Origin: Aquificota bacterium
GTDB taxonomy: Bacteria > Aquificota > Aquificia > Aquificales > Aquificaceae
Direction: 5' to 3'
Length of the DNA stretch: 64,000 nucleotides
Assembly (NCBI GenBank): GCA_018771605.1
Contig: CP076324.1
Coordinates: 1,054,001 to 1,118,000 of the forward strand
The notes under the pieces were generated by a model. The model did no database searches. It saw only the letters and a list, made by a program, of their open reading frames with translations, and was not told the DNA's origin. The position numbers and the translations under genes were made by a program. Positions 49,849-56,439 of the stretch are shown here, piece after piece (position 1 is the stretch's first letter; the number at the start of each line of letters is the position of its first letter).

Positions 49849-50349
49849 ATGGGTGGTCTAAGCAGAAGGGATGTGCTAAAAGTGGGTGGCTTGTCTTTGG
49901 CAAGCCTTGTAAGCCCATCCTTTGCCTTCAGAGTTATGGAGCCCGTGGTAAAAGTAGAAAACCCCATGCTTTATTATCCCAACAGAGACTGGGAAAGGTT
50001 TTACAGGGACATATTCAAGTCGGAAAGCACCTTTACCTTTTTGTGCGCTCCAAATGACACCCATAACTGTCTTTTGACAGCCCATGTTAAGAATGGGGTG
50101 ATGACAAGGATTGAGCCCACATATAAGTTTGGAGAGGCGACGGATATATACGGCCTTAAAGCATCTCACCGATGGGACCCAAGATGTTGTAATAAGGGCC
50201 TTGCTCTTATGAGAAGGTTTTATGGGGACAGAAGGGTTAAGGGGCCTATGGTTAGAACGGGTTTTTACCAATGGTATAAGGATGGCTTTCCAAGAGACCC
50301 AAAGACGGGCAAACCGCCAGAGAAATATTTCCAAAAAGGCTCATTTTAG
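49849..50349 (+). CDS. Type II DMSO-reductase-family molybdenum catalytic subunit, N-terminal fragment
   Basis: 166 codons. A Tat signal ([22 protein letters not shown]) is followed by the N-terminal Fe-S domain of the selenate/chlorate/ethylbenzene-type alpha subunit: [14 protein letters not shown] (Cys66, His72, Cys74) and [11 protein letters not shown] (Cys113/114). [33 protein letters not shown] follows in the usual order. The frame ends at TAG 50347 within foreign sequence. The remainder of the enzyme resumes at about 50845 in the same frame. As it stands the gene is interrupted and should not give an intact enzyme. Confidence 0.85.
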
Positions 50350-50353
50350 CCTT
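50331..50353 (-). terminator. Terminator of the inserted antisense gene
   Basis: On the minus strand, stem AAGGCT / AGCCTT with loop AAAATG, followed by five T. It overlaps the stop codon of the inserted ORF and lies at the left junction of the insert. Confidence 0.6.
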
Positions 50354-50784
50354 ATATCTTCTTTAAGATAGTATCTGAGAATTTTGTCCTTAATCTTGCG
50401 AGGAAGTAGCAGATAGATTGGTATGGCTATAAGCCAGCTGAGTATGAGGGGTAAAAAGAAGACATAAAATTGCTCTTTTATAACACCAGCCAAATAAAGC
50501 AATATACCACTAAGAGTAAGCACTGAAAATATAGAGAGAGCAATGCCACTATAAATTCCCCATTCCGAATATCGCCGTCTCACCCAATTTAAATCAAGAA
50601 AACTATACATTCCAATTTTCTCAATCCTTTTCCTTAGCCTCTTCGCCAGCTCAGGGTCTTCCCTCTCCACCTGTGCCAGTATCTCCTCTCTTTCCTTTTC
50701 CTCAAGACTTGCAAGTTTATAGGCTATCTCCTCCTCTTTTGTCTTTTTCTCCACAAGCTCTTTTATCCTGTCAAGCCTGTCCAT
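50341..50784 (-). CDS. Two-TM protein with charged helical N-terminus, inside the insert
   Basis: 147 aa. Residues about 1-60 are charged and helical ([51 protein letters not shown]). Two TM segments follow near 80-100 and 105-125, then a basic C-terminus. ATG 50784 is preferred over 50820 because TATAAT lies 7 nt upstream of it. The family is not recognised. It is transcribed against the host gene. Confidence 0.6.
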
Positions 50785-50791
50785 AAAGTTA

Positions 50792-50797
50792 ATTATA
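50792..50797 (-). promoter_or_regulatory. -10 hexamer of the inserted gene, leaderless arrangement
   Basis: TATAAT on the minus strand ends 7 nt before ATG 50784. Confidence 0.5.
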
Positions 50798-50814
50798 GCT
50801 TTTTTCTTGAGGAA

Positions 50815-50849
50815 TTCCACAGAAAATTTCTGTGGAATTCCACAGAAAA
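50815..50849. repeat. Three alternating copies of an 11-bp sequence at the insert's right junction
   Basis: TTCCACAGAAA at 50815-50825, its reverse complement TTTCTGTGGAA at 50827-50837, and TTCCACAGAAA again at 50838-50848. Together they form overlapping perfect palindromes centred on A50826 and on the EcoRI-like GAATTC. Confidence 0.75.
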
Positions 50850-50865
50850 GGTAACCTGGGATGAA

Positions 50866-53802
50866 GTGGCAGACATAATAGCAAAGGCCCTAATAAATAT
50901 AGCAACCACTTATACAGGCGAAGAAGGAAGAAAAAGACTTGAAGCACAAGGTTATTCCAAGTCTATGCTTGATGCCATGGAAGGGGCTGGGACAAGGGTA
51001 TTAAAGTTTAGGGGTTCTATGCCTTTCCTTGCAGTTGTTAGATACACATCTCCCTACAGAATGGCAAACATGATGGCCCTTTTGGACAGCCATATAAGGG
51101 AAGTGGGTCCAGACAAAGCCCTTGGAGGAAGAGGCTGGGACAATTATGCTTTCCATACAGACCTTGCGCCAGGCCATCCTATGGTAAGCGGTCAGCAGAA
51201 CGTGGAGTTTGACCTATGTATGTGGGAGCACTCAAAGCTTATCATCCTTTGGGGAATGAACCCATTTACTACCAAAATGCCAGACTCTCATTGGCTAACG
51301 GAGGCGAGGATAAAAGGTTCCAAGGTGATAGTTATATCCAACGACTATTCTCCTACTGCAAGGTCTGCGGATGAGGTAATCATAGTAAGAACTGGAACGG
51401 ACACCGCTTTAGCCCTTTCCATAGCTTACGTGATAATGAAGGAAAAACTATATCAAGAAAGGTATGTGAAGAGCTTTACCGATATGCCACTCCTTGTAAG
51501 GATGGACAACGGCAAGGTCCTAAGGGCAAGAGACATAATACCCAACTATCAACCCAAAGAGCTCAAGAAGGCAATTGTTTTCAAGCCAGGCACAACCCTA
51601 CCACCCTTCTTTAAACAAGAAAAGCAATATATACCAGAGCCTATAAGAAAAGAAGATATGGATGACTTTGTGGTGTGGGACAAAAAGAGCAACTCTCCAA
51701 AGGTGATAACAAGGGATGATGTGGGGGAGGACTTTTGGAAGCTTGGTATAGACCCAGCACTTGAGGGAACTTATAAGGTAAAGACTGTGGACGGAAAAGA
51801 AGTAGAGGTAAAGCCCCTTTTCCAAGTTTACCTTGAATTCTTTGAAAAAAGCTACACACCAAAGCAGGCGGAGATAATAACGGGAGTGCCAGCCAAGAAG
51901 ATAGAGAGGTTGGCAAGGGAGATAGCATCACATCCAAGGAATATGAAGCTGGCGCAAGGCATGGGTGTAAATCAATACCAGCATGCAGACCTAAAGGACA
52001 GAGCCATGTATATGATATGCGCCCTAACAGACAATATAGGCCATGCCACAGGAAACATAGGATCCTACGCTGGAAACTTTAGGCTTGCACTCTTTAATGG
52101 CGCACCTCAATATTTGGCAGAAGACCCCTTCAACGTGGAACTGGATCCAAACAAGCCTGCGAAAGTTAGGTTTTATTGGAGGCCAGAGTCTGCCCACTAC
52201 TATTCTCATGACGACCATCCCCAATATATGGGAGAAGAGCTCATTACTGGAAAGACCCACATGCCCACTCCTACCAAGTTTATATGGTTTGTGGATGCCA
52301 ATTCTGCCCTTGGCAACGCCAAGTGGAAGTACAACATAGTTATGAACACCCTTCCAAAGATTGAGTGTATAGTCACCAACGAGTGGTGGTGGTCTATGAC
52401 CTGCGAGTACTCAGACATAGTGCTTGGAGTGGATGCATGGAACGAGAACAAATACTGGGATATTGCAGGGTCGGTTACTAACCCCTTTGTGTATGTATGG
52501 CCAAAGACTGGACACAGAAGGCTATATGACACAAAGAACGATGCGGAAACCTTTGCCCTTGTGGCAAACAGGCTTACAGAGCTTACGGGGGATGAACGAT
52601 TTAGGAACTACTGGAAGTTTGTACTTGAGGGGAAGCAAGACGTGGTCTATGTGCAAAGAGTTATAAACGCCTCTTCAAACTTAAGGGGCTACAAGCTTGA
52701 AGAGATAGCGAAGAAGGCCCATGAGGGCATACCATCCCTCATAATGACAAGAACCTATCCCAAGTATGTGGGGAAAGACCAAACGGAGGAGAGTATGCCA
52801 TGGTATACAAAAAGTGGAAGGCTTGAGTTTTATAGGGAAGAGCCAGAGTTCATAAACGCAGGAGAAAACCTGCCAGTTTATAGAGAACCAATAGATTCAA
52901 CCCATTATGAGCCAAACGTAATAGTAGCCAAGCCACATCCACTCCTTAGGCCCAAAAAACCAGAGGACTACAAGGTTAAAAGCGAAGATGCCCTTTTAAA
53001 CACAGAGTGGAGACAGGCAAGGAACGTTTTAGTATCTCCTGAGAAACTTCCTAAGACAAAGCATCCCCTTAAAGTCACCTTTGGAGCTACGCATATAGTC
53101 CATACACCTAAGTATAGACACTCAGCCCATACCACAACGGGAGATACGGATATTACTACCCTTCTCTTTGGTCCTTTTGGAGACATATATAGGCACGATA
53201 AGAGAATGCCCTTCATTTCAGAAGCTTACATAGATATAAATCCAAAGGATTTGGAAAAGCTGGGTATAAAGGATGGGGACTACGTGTGGGTGGATGCAGA
53301 CCCTCAGGATAGACCCTTTGTGGGATGGAAAAACAGACCAGAAGACTATGAGGTGGCAAGACTTCTTCTAAGGGCCAGGGCATCCAACAACACACCACCG
53401 GGCTGTGCCAAGATATGGTTTAACATGTATGGTTCAACTCATGGAACCGTTAGAGGAACAAAGGAAAACCCCAACGGACTTGCTAAGAATCCTTACACCA
53501 ACTATCAATCCCTTTACAGGAGGGGGAGCCACCAAAGCATTACAAGGTCTTGGCTAAAGCCTACCTATCAAACAGATACGTTGATAAGGAAGAACCTTAT
53601 GGGACAGATAATAGGCAAGGGTTTTGAGCTTGATGTACATGGCCCGATAGGTGCACCTAGGGAAGGTTTTTCCAAGATAATAAAGGCTGAGGATGGCGGA
53701 ATAGGTGGAAAAGGATTGTGGAGGCCACTAAAGCTTGGCTTTAGACCCATGAATCCAAACGAGATGCTAAAGAAGTATGTAAGAGCTGAATACATAAAGT
53801 GA
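50866..53802 (+). CDS. Type II DMSO-reductase-family molybdenum catalytic subunit, C-terminal fragment
   Basis: 978 codons from a GTG. The homologous frame is open upstream to KVTWDEVADIIAKAL, which would join the N-terminal fragment. It contains the molybdopterin-binding core (KLIILWGMNPFTTKMPDSHWLTEARIKGSKVIVISNDYSPTARSADEVIIVRTGTDTALALS) and the C-terminal dinucleotide-binding domain (PFISEAYIDINPKDLEKLGIKDGDYVWVDAD). No Shine-Dalgarno or good start precedes it, so it is probably not translated alone. In the family this subunit oxidises or reduces a small periplasmic substrate (nitrate, selenate, chlorate, dimethyl sulfide or hydrocarbon); the substrate is unknown. The beta subunit gene follows after 11 bp. 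Confidence 0.85.
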   Translation: MADIIAKALINIATTYTGEEGRKRLEAQGYSKSMLDAMEGAGTRVLKFRGSMPFLAVVRYTSPYRMANMMALLDSHIREVGPDKALGGRGWDNYAFHTDLAPGHPMVSGQQNVEFDLCMWEHSKLIILWGMNPFTTKMPDSHWLTEARIKGSKVIVISNDYSPTARSADEVIIVRTGTDTALALSIAYVIMKEKLYQERYVKSFTDMPLLVRMDNGKVLRARDIIPNYQPKELKKAIVFKPGTTLPPFFKQEKQYIPEPIRKEDMDDFVVWDKKSNSPKVITRDDVGEDFWKLGIDPALEGTYKVKTVDGKEVEVKPLFQVYLEFFEKSYTPKQAEIITGVPAKKIERLAREIASHPRNMKLAQGMGVNQYQHADLKDRAMYMICALTDNIGHATGNIGSYAGNFRLALFNGAPQYLAEDPFNVELDPNKPAKVRFYWRPESAHYYSHDDHPQYMGEELITGKTHMPTPTKFIWFVDANSALGNAKWKYNIVMNTLPKIECIVTNEWWWSMTCEYSDIVLGVDAWNENKYWDIAGSVTNPFVYVWPKTGHRRLYDTKNDAETFALVANRLTELTGDERFRNYWKFVLEGKQDVVYVQRVINASSNLRGYKLEEIAKKAHEGIPSLIMTRTYPKYVGKDQTEESMPWYTKSGRLEFYREEPEFINAGENLPVYREPIDSTHYEPNVIVAKPHPLLRPKKPEDYKVKSEDALLNTEWRQARNVLVSPEKLPKTKHPLKVTFGATHIVHTPKYRHSAHTTTGDTDITTLLFGPFGDIYRHDKRMPFISEAYIDINPKDLEKLGIKDGDYVWVDADPQDRPFVGWKNRPEDYEVARLLLRARASNNTPPGCAKIWFNMYGSTHGTVRGTKENPNGLAKNPYTNYQSLYRRGSHQSITRSWLKPTYQTDTLIRKNLMGQIIGKGFELDVHGPIGAPREGFSKIIKAEDGGIGGKGLWRPLKLGFRPMNPNEMLKKYVRAEYIK

Positions 53803-53813
53803 GGAGGTGAGCC

Positions 53814-54920
53814 ATGAAAGCTTATAACTGGCAACTAAAAAGGGAAATCAACTATCCCTACGAGGTCAAAAGGCCAAAAAGGCAGTTTGCAGTAGTCATG
53901 GACCTAAACAAATGTATAGCCTGTCAGACATGTACTGTAGCTTGTAAGACCACATGGACTCCCGGAAGAGGCCAGGAGTACATGCTTTGGAACAACGTGG
54001 AAACAAAGCCTTACGGCTTTTATCCCCTTGGCTGGGATGTGAGGCTCCTTGAGCTTTTGGAAGGCAATAAAAAGACTGTCTTTGATGCGCCGGAGGGTGA
54101 AAGGGTGTTGGGCTGGAAACCGGAGGATATGGATTGGATGTATCCAAACATAGGAGAGGATGAGGTAAACGAGCCCGTGGACATAGGCACTGTGCTTGAA
54201 TCCTTGCCGCACCCCATATGGATGTTCTACCTACCAAGGATATGCAATCACTGTACTTACCCCGCCTGCGTTGCCGCCTGCCCAAGGCAGGCCATATACA
54301 AAAGGGAAGAGGATGGCATAGTCCTTATAGACCCAGAAAGATGCGAAGGCTACCAGGAATGTGTAAAAGCCTGTCCCTACAAGAAGACCATGTTTAATTT
54401 TGTAGCGAGGATATCTCAAAAGTGCATAGGTTGTTTCCCAAGGGTGGAAGAGGGGCTTCAGCCTCAATGTGTTATAACATGCATAGGCAAGATAAGGCTC
54501 ATGGGCTTTATAAGCCCGCCAGAGAAGGCAAGGCCAGACAATCCTATAGACTTTTTGGTGCATATAAAGAAGGTTGCCCTCCCCCTATATCCTCAAAGCG
54601 GGCTTGAGCCTAACGTCTATTACATACCACCCATAAATGTTCCTATTAAGTTTCTCAAGCAAATGTTTGGTGATGGTGCGGAGCATGCGGTAAAGACCTA
54701 CATGGCCATGAGAGAAGGCAAAGAGCCGGAGCTTCAAGCCCTTTTACACCTCTTTGGTTCCACGCCAAGGATACCATACTCCTTTGCAGTGGGGCCAAAG
54801 GAAGTTATAGCCTACGATGAGAAGGGTAAGGAAATAGTGAGGGTACCCCTTGTGGAGCCTCTTCAGAGCAGGCCTCATAAGGATGAAAGGCTTGAGGTTG
54901 TGAGACAAGATATACCTTGA
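53814..54920 (+). CDS. Iron-sulfur beta subunit of the type II DMSO-reductase-family enzyme
   Basis: 368 aa with four cluster motifs: [38 protein letters not shown], and [20 protein letters not shown]. The third motif has Tyr where the first CxxC would have Cys, and the fourth has a spacer, as is usual in NarH/SerB/DdhB-type subunits. It passes electrons between the molybdenum subunit and the heme subunit. It has no signal of its own and would be exported with the Tat-bearing alpha subunit. The Shine-Dalgarno is GAGGAGGTGAG. Confidence 0.93.
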
Positions 54921-54932
54921 AGGAGGTGAGCC

Positions 54933-55769
54933 ATGATAGTTATAAAGTTTTTGGCTTTTGGCTTGCTTTTACTTAGCCTTTCTTTTGCGCAGGAACTCAT
55001 ATCCAAAAGGGTTTCTAAGACCACCGTAGACCCCTTTGACAAGGTATGGGATCAGGCAAAGGAGGTGGAAGTTCCCCTCTCCGGTCAAGCTGTTACCACA
55101 CCCATGAAGCTAAAACCTACTGTAAACAGCATAAGGGTAAAGAGTGTAAACGACGGCAAGTATATAGCCTTTTTGCTTGTATGGGAAGACAAAACCCAGG
55201 ACAGGTTCCACCTTGTAGATGCCTTTCCCGATGCGGTAGCCATTCAAATACCTTACAAGCCTTCAAGCGATGTACCAGTTACAATGGGTGATAAGGGACA
55301 GAGGGTTTTAATACTCCATTGGACAGCATCAAGGGAGGAAAACTTGGAGCATGGCTATGCGGATGTTTCCAAAATATACCCCAATGCAGTCTACGACTGG
55401 TATCCCCACGCCACACCACCCTATAAATATCCAGAGGACTGGGCAAACCAATATGCCCTTAACTACATAGGAGGGGAAAAGGTCTTCAGAAAGAACACGC
55501 TAAAGACCCCTGTTAGAGAGATAGTGGCTGAGGGTTTTGGTTCTACCACATGGAAGGATATACAGGGAGCGGAAGGAAAGGGTGTTTACAAGGATGGAAA
55601 ATGGTATGTGGTTATAAGGAGGGCCTTCGTGGAAGAGAATACGAGCAATCCCGACTGGGGACCCGGTAAGGCAACCTTTATAACCTTTGCAGTCTGGGAT
55701 GGTTCTGCTGGCGATGTGGGTGCAAGGAAGGTGCTAAGCTACTCATGGATACCTTTAAAGGTGGAGTGA
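54933..55769 (+). CDS. Heme-binding gamma subunit (ethylbenzene dehydrogenase-related)
   Basis: 278 aa. The signal peptide is MIVIKFLAFGLLLLSLSFAQ, followed by the EB_dh/DOMON-like beta sandwich (VKSVNDGKYIAFLLVWEDKTQDRFHLVDAFPDAVAIQIPYKP; YVVIRRAFV; ITFAVWDGSAGDVGARKVLSYSWIPL). In EbdC/SerC/DdhC a b-heme is held by Met and Lys. It links the periplasmic enzyme to soluble cytochromes. A 12-bp gap with a good Shine-Dalgarno separates it from the beta gene. Confidence 0.88.
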   Translation: MIVIKFLAFGLLLLSLSFAQELISKRVSKTTVDPFDKVWDQAKEVEVPLSGQAVTTPMKLKPTVNSIRVKSVNDGKYIAFLLVWEDKTQDRFHLVDAFPDAVAIQIPYKPSSDVPVTMGDKGQRVLILHWTASREENLEHGYADVSKIYPNAVYDWYPHATPPYKYPEDWANQYALNYIGGEKVFRKNTLKTPVREIVAEGFGSTTWKDIQGAEGKGVYKDGKWYVVIRRAFVEENTSNPDWGPGKATFITFAVWDGSAGDVGARKVLSYSWIPLKVE

Positions 55770-55770
55770 T

Positions 55771-56439
55771 ATGAGTGTATATAAGGCTTATGTTTATAGC
55801 TTTCTTTCGGTGGCCTTTTCTTACCCTTCGGAGGAACTCCTGGAAGAACTGTGGGGAGGTCTTGATGACCTCTCCCTCTCTTTAAAGGAGCTCGGCATTG
55901 AGTTTGATGTGGAAGCCTTGCGCAGGGTTATAGAGGAGAGCAAAAGAAGGGTACTTGACCTCAAGGGAGAATGGACTTCTCTTTTCTCCACTTCTTTAAA
56001 AGCTCCTGCCAATGAGACAGCCTATGAGATGGATAAGGCAGCAAGGAGGGCTTGGGAGCTTGCAGACATAGAGGGCTTTTACAAAGCCTTTGGGCTTGAT
56101 GTAAAGCCACCTATGGAGCCAGACAGCCTTGTGGCGGAGCTTGAGTTTATGGCCTACCTGATAAAGAAGGAGATGTATGCAGAGGAAAGAGGAATGGAGG
56201 AAGAGGCAAAGATAACAAAGGAGGCTTATACTAACTTTTTCAGGGACCATCTGGGAAGATGGTATAGGATATTCACAGACCTTGTGAAGGAAAACACGGA
56301 GGAAGAGTACTACAAGCTTATGGCTACCCTTTTAAGGCTTTTCTTAGACAGCCAAAGGGAAGGTATAGAAGGTATAAAGGATATAGAAGAATACAGAAAG
56401 GAAGTGCTGGAAGGCTCCACCTGGAGGTGTGGCTTTTAA
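55771..56439 (+). CDS. TorD/DmsD/NarJ-like chaperone (delta subunit)
   Basis: 222 aa, all-helical, with a hydrophobic N-terminal helix (YKAYVYSFLSVAFSYPSEELLEEL) and the TorD-family motif EPDSLVAELEFMAYLI (E-P-D-x2-x4-E-x2-M). It binds the Tat signal of the alpha subunit and helps molybdenum cofactor insertion before export. Last gene of the operon, 1 bp after gamma. The following 235 bp (56440-56674) is AT-rich with no gene. Confidence 0.85.
   Translation: MSVYKAYVYSFLSVAFSYPSEELLEELWGGLDDLSLSLKELGIEFDVEALRRVIEESKRRVLDLKGEWTSLFSTSLKAPANETAYEMDKAARRAWELADIEGFYKAFGLDVKPPMEPDSLVAELEFMAYLIKKEMYAEERGMEEEAKITKEAYTNFFRDHLGRWYRIFTDLVKENTEEEYYKLMATLLRLFLDSQREGIEGIKDIEEYRKEVLEGSTWRCGF

Follow-up and report, generated by a model that had tools for sequence, protein, structure and literature searches.

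In nitrite oxidoreductases (NXR), a C-x3-D-x3-C FS0 pattern has been described, and the nitrate reductase of Hydrogenobaculum is reported to be a relative of the NXR clade (PMC8387239). Among conjugative elements, the TraG proteins of F and R100 agree at 93% overall and at 17% over residues 610-673, the segment that sets the specificity of exclusion by TraS (PMC9797247), and exclusion genes commonly adjoin the gene of their TraG or VirB6 target (PMC11493245). In this study, a stretch of 64,000 nt from an Aquificota bacterium of the family Aquificaceae (assembly GCA_018771605.1, contig CP076324.1, positions 1,054,001 to 1,118,000, forward strand; the window) was analyzed, in which the alpha-subunit gene of a predicted NxrA-type enzyme is interrupted by a ~0.5-kb piece of an F-type integrative and conjugative element (ICE). 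The intact orthologue of this gene resembles the NxrA of anammox bacteria and Nitrospira and the Hydrogenobaculum nitrate reductase in its full-length similarity, twin-arginine translocation (Tat) signal and FS0 ligands, whereas the gene in the window is split. The genome of the window is denoted G000, and other G numbers denote compared genomes. The features at the split, in window coordinates, are as follows.

49849..50335, plus strand: N-terminal part of the alpha subunit, with the Tat signal and the FS0 motif ...DPRCC; intact orthologues elsewhere
50336..50846, no strand: inserted ICE fragment of ~511 nt, replacing ~19 nt of native sequence
50336..50353, minus strand: hairpin AAGGCT-CATTTT-AGCCTT where the small gene ends, also found in G048
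50341..50784, minus strand: gene for a 147-aa membrane protein, putatively of entry exclusion, antisense to alpha; homologues beside traG in G037 and G048
50792..50797, minus strand: -10 box TATAAT, 7 nt 5' of the ATG, shared by the window copy and those of G037 and G045
50804..50825, no strand: ICE palindrome copy 2, TTCTTGAGGAATTCCACAGAAA, adjoining the -10 box
50827..50848, no strand: ICE palindrome copy 1, TTTCTGTGGAATTCCACAGAAA, matching the ICE motif
50848..53802, plus strand: C-terminal part of the alpha subunit, with GTG 50866 as its earliest possible start

About a dozen other Aquificaceae have an uninterrupted alpha gene, and G028, G029, G045, G037, G025 and G046 encode alpha subunits of 1153-1154 aa in a single open reading frame (ORF), with 89-92% protein identity to the C-terminal part in the window, indicating that the gene is normally unbroken and was entered by the insert. 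The N-terminal ORF (49849-50349, 166 aa) extends past the junction, its stop at 50349 lying inside the insert, and the two fragments are in identical phase (50866-49849 = 1017 = 3x339). The original prediction, an earlier reading of the same DNA, that consecutive parts of one alpha protein in the same phase are split by an antisense ORF is borne out by the ORF map and the intact orthologues. Alignment to Aquificaceae alpha subunits, recommended with that prediction as the way to fix the insert ends, placed them at 50336-50846, with the edges uncertain by a few nt (AAGG and AAAGGT are common to both sides), and the native R-G-K-D-K-F-I region (~19 nt) was found to be missing from the window. 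The uninterrupted junction of relatives reads, for example in G025 (L012), TTCCAAAGAGGAAAGGATAAGTTTATAAAGGTCACATGG; the window reads TTCCAAA / AAGGCTCATTTTAGCC...CTGTGGAATTCCACAGA / AAAGGTAACCTGG, where slashes mark the edges of the insert. The ~0.5-kb separator that had been described as dropped into the gene is thus a real insertion, but because native sequence was lost the change is a substitution and not a clean addition. Transposition with AAAAGG as the target duplication was also considered and rejected, as the corresponding interval in relatives is longer by ~19 nt.

An excisable or programmed interruption, such as an intervening element, an intein-like element, an intron or a gene cassette, would be removed by the host to restore the enzyme, and the original prediction had likewise held that the host might remove the insert or that its precise loss could restore the frame. 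The kept reading phase and the intact flanking ORFs and downstream operon fit such an element, but no mechanism is needed to keep the phase, because the net 492 nt added are divisible by three, as happens by chance in one case out of three. The only direct repeats of at least 6 nt bridging the insert, AAAAGG, AAAGGC and AAATAT, are spaced 512, 548 and 572 nt apart; as these distances are not multiples of three, loss through any of them shifts the frame, and a precise frame-restoring loss is therefore unavailable by simple recombination, nor would the lost native codons be regained. Moreover, the single ORF of the insert encodes the antisense membrane protein, with no transposase or recombinase detected (no recombinase family above cut-off), no intron RNA family reached its curated threshold, with only weak sub-threshold matches at the palindromes, and elsewhere the same unit sits in an ICE, not in alpha genes. 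Removal by the host is thus barely credible.

The insert originates from an ICE of congeneric bacteria. An F-type ICE of ~65 kb is whole in the congener G037 (C1, 753-819 kb; L072-L075), where it encodes TraG_N, TraH, TraU, TraN, TraC, TrbI, a TraD-like protein and a tyrosine integrase, and partial in G048; the insert is 88% similar to the G037 ICE across 274 nt. The 147-aa protein has a homologue of 59-62% identity in G037 and one in G048 whose last 38 residues are 100% identical (a contig end cuts the rest), while a 23-codon remnant of its gene is present in G045. In G037 and G048, the homologous gene is convergent (tail-to-tail) with the gene for a 986-aa TraG. A search for the protein elsewhere, which had been proposed with the original prediction, returned G037, G048 and G045 only; within Aquificaceae its relatives are confined to the window's own genus, and no convincing relatives were found outside the genus in plasmids, viral contigs or the phylum, where weak matches (E ~4e-4 to 0.01) cover only part of the query. 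Across most of 7 kb, the ICE backbones of G037 and G048 are 97-100% identical, indicating that the ICE moves between species. A second variable stretch lies in the middle of traH of G048 (L077:3565-4010), with 82-91% DNA identity in an ICE backbone that is otherwise 99-100% identical.

The insert is one ICE transcription unit, comprising a hairpin, a gene, its promoter and two operators, and its right edge, judged on G037, lies just beyond the operators and short of a divergent ICE promoter. The minus-strand ORF ends at 50341 and encodes 147 aa from ATG 50784 or 159 aa from GTG 50820. Transmembrane (TM) segments are predicted at residues ~76-103 and 105-131 of the 147-aa protein, the N-terminus is charged and helical, and the structure model is helical at low confidence (mean pLDDT 68). 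The spacing of the -10 box is consistent with a leaderless-type promoter arrangement in the window, G037 and G045 copies, and the hairpin is likely the terminator of the gene. The insert had been taken for a gene cassette with its own -10 box, 147-aa ORF and terminator; the antisense unit is indeed complete, but it derives from a conjugative element, of which it is a fragment, and nothing observed marks it as an integron-type cassette.

The 22-bp palindrome occurs in 16 copies in G037, all within C1 753271-817600 and thus inside the ICE, and no copies were found in G000 beyond the insert. Many of the G037 copies lie directly 5' of a TATAAT-like box and a start codon, including those of the integrase gene. 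Since they precede unrelated genes across the ICE, the palindromes appear regulatory and not unit ends, and very probably represent an element-wide ICE operator. The AcaCD regulons of IncC plasmids are similar to the G037 ICE in that one operator-like motif is repeated before many operons, integrase included, and SetCD of SXT/R391 likewise governs an element-wide regulon with its motif repeated before many operons; the ICE motif differs from both in being a 22-bp palindrome. Because the edges of the insert fall at the hairpin and a palindrome, a small self-transposing unit, either MITE-like (miniature inverted-repeat transposable element) or a gene with palindromic ends, was also weighed. When 511-nt windows are drawn at random from the ICE, only ~4% of them contain a complete gene together with its start region. 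This is in line with such a unit and mildly favours either selection acting on the gene or some structural cause of the edges, although one event cannot decide. A 110-nt insert between nfi and glyQ in G045 (C4; L006:1463-1572), carrying the promoter and 23 codons of the 147-aa gene, also points to mobility. However, this remnant lacks the palindromes, G045 contains other, unrelated ICE fragments, and at the window's insert neither terminal inverted repeats nor a target duplication was found, the empty sites showing the loss of ~19 nt. Together with the regulatory placement of the palindromes across the ICE, these observations make a self-transposing unit very unlikely.

Apart from the insert, the ICE is absent from G000, where no TraG was found. 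The CRISPR (clustered regularly interspaced short palindromic repeats) arrays of G000 nevertheless carry two perfect 37-nt spacers against the G037 ICE (C1:324513-324549 and 1449066-1449102; L141, L142), in arrays with the repeat GTTTTATCTGAACTATGTGGGATGTAAAG, and further anti-ICE spacers occur in G045 and G028. The G045 chromosome also contains several short ICE fragments, including one of 751 nt on C24, and on C15 (L080:1-200) a 3' tail of traG lies directly upstream of rplM at the contig end. The nfi/glyQ remnant, which shows an apparent internal deletion between GAGATA repeats, is not present in G000 or in other congeners. It thus seems that members of this genus capture pieces of the ICE repeatedly. 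A capture specific for the junction of traG and the candidate exclusion gene was considered and dropped, because G045 proved to contain further fragments when other parts of the ICE were compared as a control. That the event is single-copy and the ICE otherwise absent could also reflect an assembly or sample chimera, with the ICE fragment not truly in the alpha gene. Against this, the genome is one contig with 99.99% completeness, the host spacers are directed against this very ICE, the small ORF remains open and shows true divergence from the G037 copy, and the flanks are otherwise undamaged, so that a chimera is highly improbable.

The first 124 nt of the insert are 100% identical to G048, while G000 and G048 share 80.9% chromosomal identity in a sampled 2-kb core stretch, indicating that the transfer was recent. 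The nonsynonymous divergence (dN) of the alpha C-terminal part to outgroups is no higher than in intact relatives, the comparison being limited to dN to outgroups because synonymous divergence (dS) is saturated. With this limit, a decaying pseudogene was rejected. The identity to G048 and the unraised dN both point to a recent inactivation of the alpha gene, in agreement with the earlier suggestion that the operon has just been inactivated. Residual function of the two alpha fragments is unlikely, since the C-terminal fragment has no Tat signal and native residues are missing.

These results are best explained by capture of an ICE fragment through illegitimate recombination, which probably inactivated the NxrA-type enzyme recently. 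A ~0.5-kb fragment of the F-type ICE, with one whole gene, its promoter, two operators and the hairpin, would have joined the alpha gene by illegitimate short-homology recombination, with ~19 nt deleted and the enzyme broken. The route would be end joining, with AAAGGT common to the target and the ICE at the right end, and the source perhaps DNA that the cell had taken up or that remained after a conjugation was aborted. Some caution about this route is warranted, as the microhomology was judged from the G037 and G048 copies in place of the donor ICE.

The position of the captured gene beside traG and a hypervariable segment in TraG suggest an entry-exclusion gene. TraG of G037 and G048 is identical at 725 of 738 positions up to residue 738, at 15 of 40 in residues 739-778, at 46 of 57 in 779-835 and at 134 of 135 in 836-970, so that residues 739-778 form a hypervariable segment of 38% identity inside a protein of ~98%. 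The 147-aa protein of the window and its G037 homologue are identical at 42 of 44 N-terminal residues and divergent beyond, its alleles differing in the manner of the TraG segment in the two elements compared. TraS of IncF plasmids and Eex of SXT/R391 ICEs and IncA/C plasmids are likewise small proteins of inner-membrane type encoded beside an F-type traG, and their partner TraG shows, as in G037 and G048, a hypervariable segment in a nearly invariant protein. The 147-aa gene differs from them by the lack of detected similarity, by its convergence with traG and by its solitary chromosomal copy without the element. On these grounds, the chances are about even that the 147-aa protein serves the ICE in entry exclusion, in which case it would act at the inner membrane of the recipient and be directed against the TraG of the donor. 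In line with this role, small proteins with 2-3 TM segments, unrelated to the 147-aa protein, directly follow traG in G053 and G015. Several observations speak against an exclusion role: in other Aquificaceae (G013, G059 and G002) traG is followed by soluble proteins, no sequence match of the 147-aa protein was found among the Pfam, NCBIfam, PHROG and PADLOC families or with TraS or Eex, and the G048 copy is cut after 38 codons, so that the pairing of TraG type with protein type rests on two elements. The literature searches returned no characterized exclusion system in Aquificota.

If the protein does act in exclusion, its gene might have been retained for the immunity to the ICE that it gives the host, at the price of a broken enzyme. 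The capture of precisely one entire gene together with its control sites (~4% by chance), the repeated exposure to this ICE indicated by the host CRISPR arrays and the still open reading frame are consistent with such selection. On the other hand, the event is too recent for visible selection, the gene may be silent if the operator requires an ICE activator, the exclusion function is putative, and other ICE fragments were also captured in G045, so that selected capture is rather doubtful. It is likewise only a tentative thought that the insert represents a stand-alone chromosomal anti-conjugation immunity gene of Aquificaceae, of a new exclusion-protein family, standing beside CRISPR spacers against the same ICE at the cost of an NxrA-type enzyme. 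The locus offers a natural example of a single gene of a conjugative element captured on its own in a thermophile chromosome. It also connects one ICE with CRISPR immunity as well as with the loss of a gene of the NXR/nitrate-reductase clade, and it puts forward a candidate entry-exclusion protein and a candidate TraG specificity segment for Aquificota.

The broken enzyme had originally been placed in the type II dimethyl sulfoxide (DMSO) reductase family. This placement is right and can be narrowed to the NxrA clade: the intact orthologue in G029 matches Kuenenia NxrA (7b04_B), the best match among solved structures, over its full length (907 bits, E=9e-272), far above perchlorate or nitrate reductases, and the window alpha keeps the FS0 ligand pattern C-x3-D-x3-C...C (Kuenenia C67, D71, C75, C115). 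By sequence, the alpha subunit is a member of the periplasmic nitrite oxidoreductase/nitrate reductase (NxrA) clade, and the enzyme would either reduce nitrate or oxidize nitrite. Downstream of the split gene, the ORF map and family matches confirmed that the beta, gamma and chaperone genes are intact, as had been predicted.

53814..54920, plus strand: beta (Fe-S) subunit, intact
54933..55769, plus strand: gamma (haem b) subunit, intact, with an EB_dh/DMSO_red_II_gam family match
55771..56439, plus strand: TorD/NarJ-like chaperone, intact

In addition, alpha genes with 74-78% identity are present in metagenome-assembled genomes of Alphaproteobacteria and Desulfuromonadales, which suggests a wide horizontal spread.

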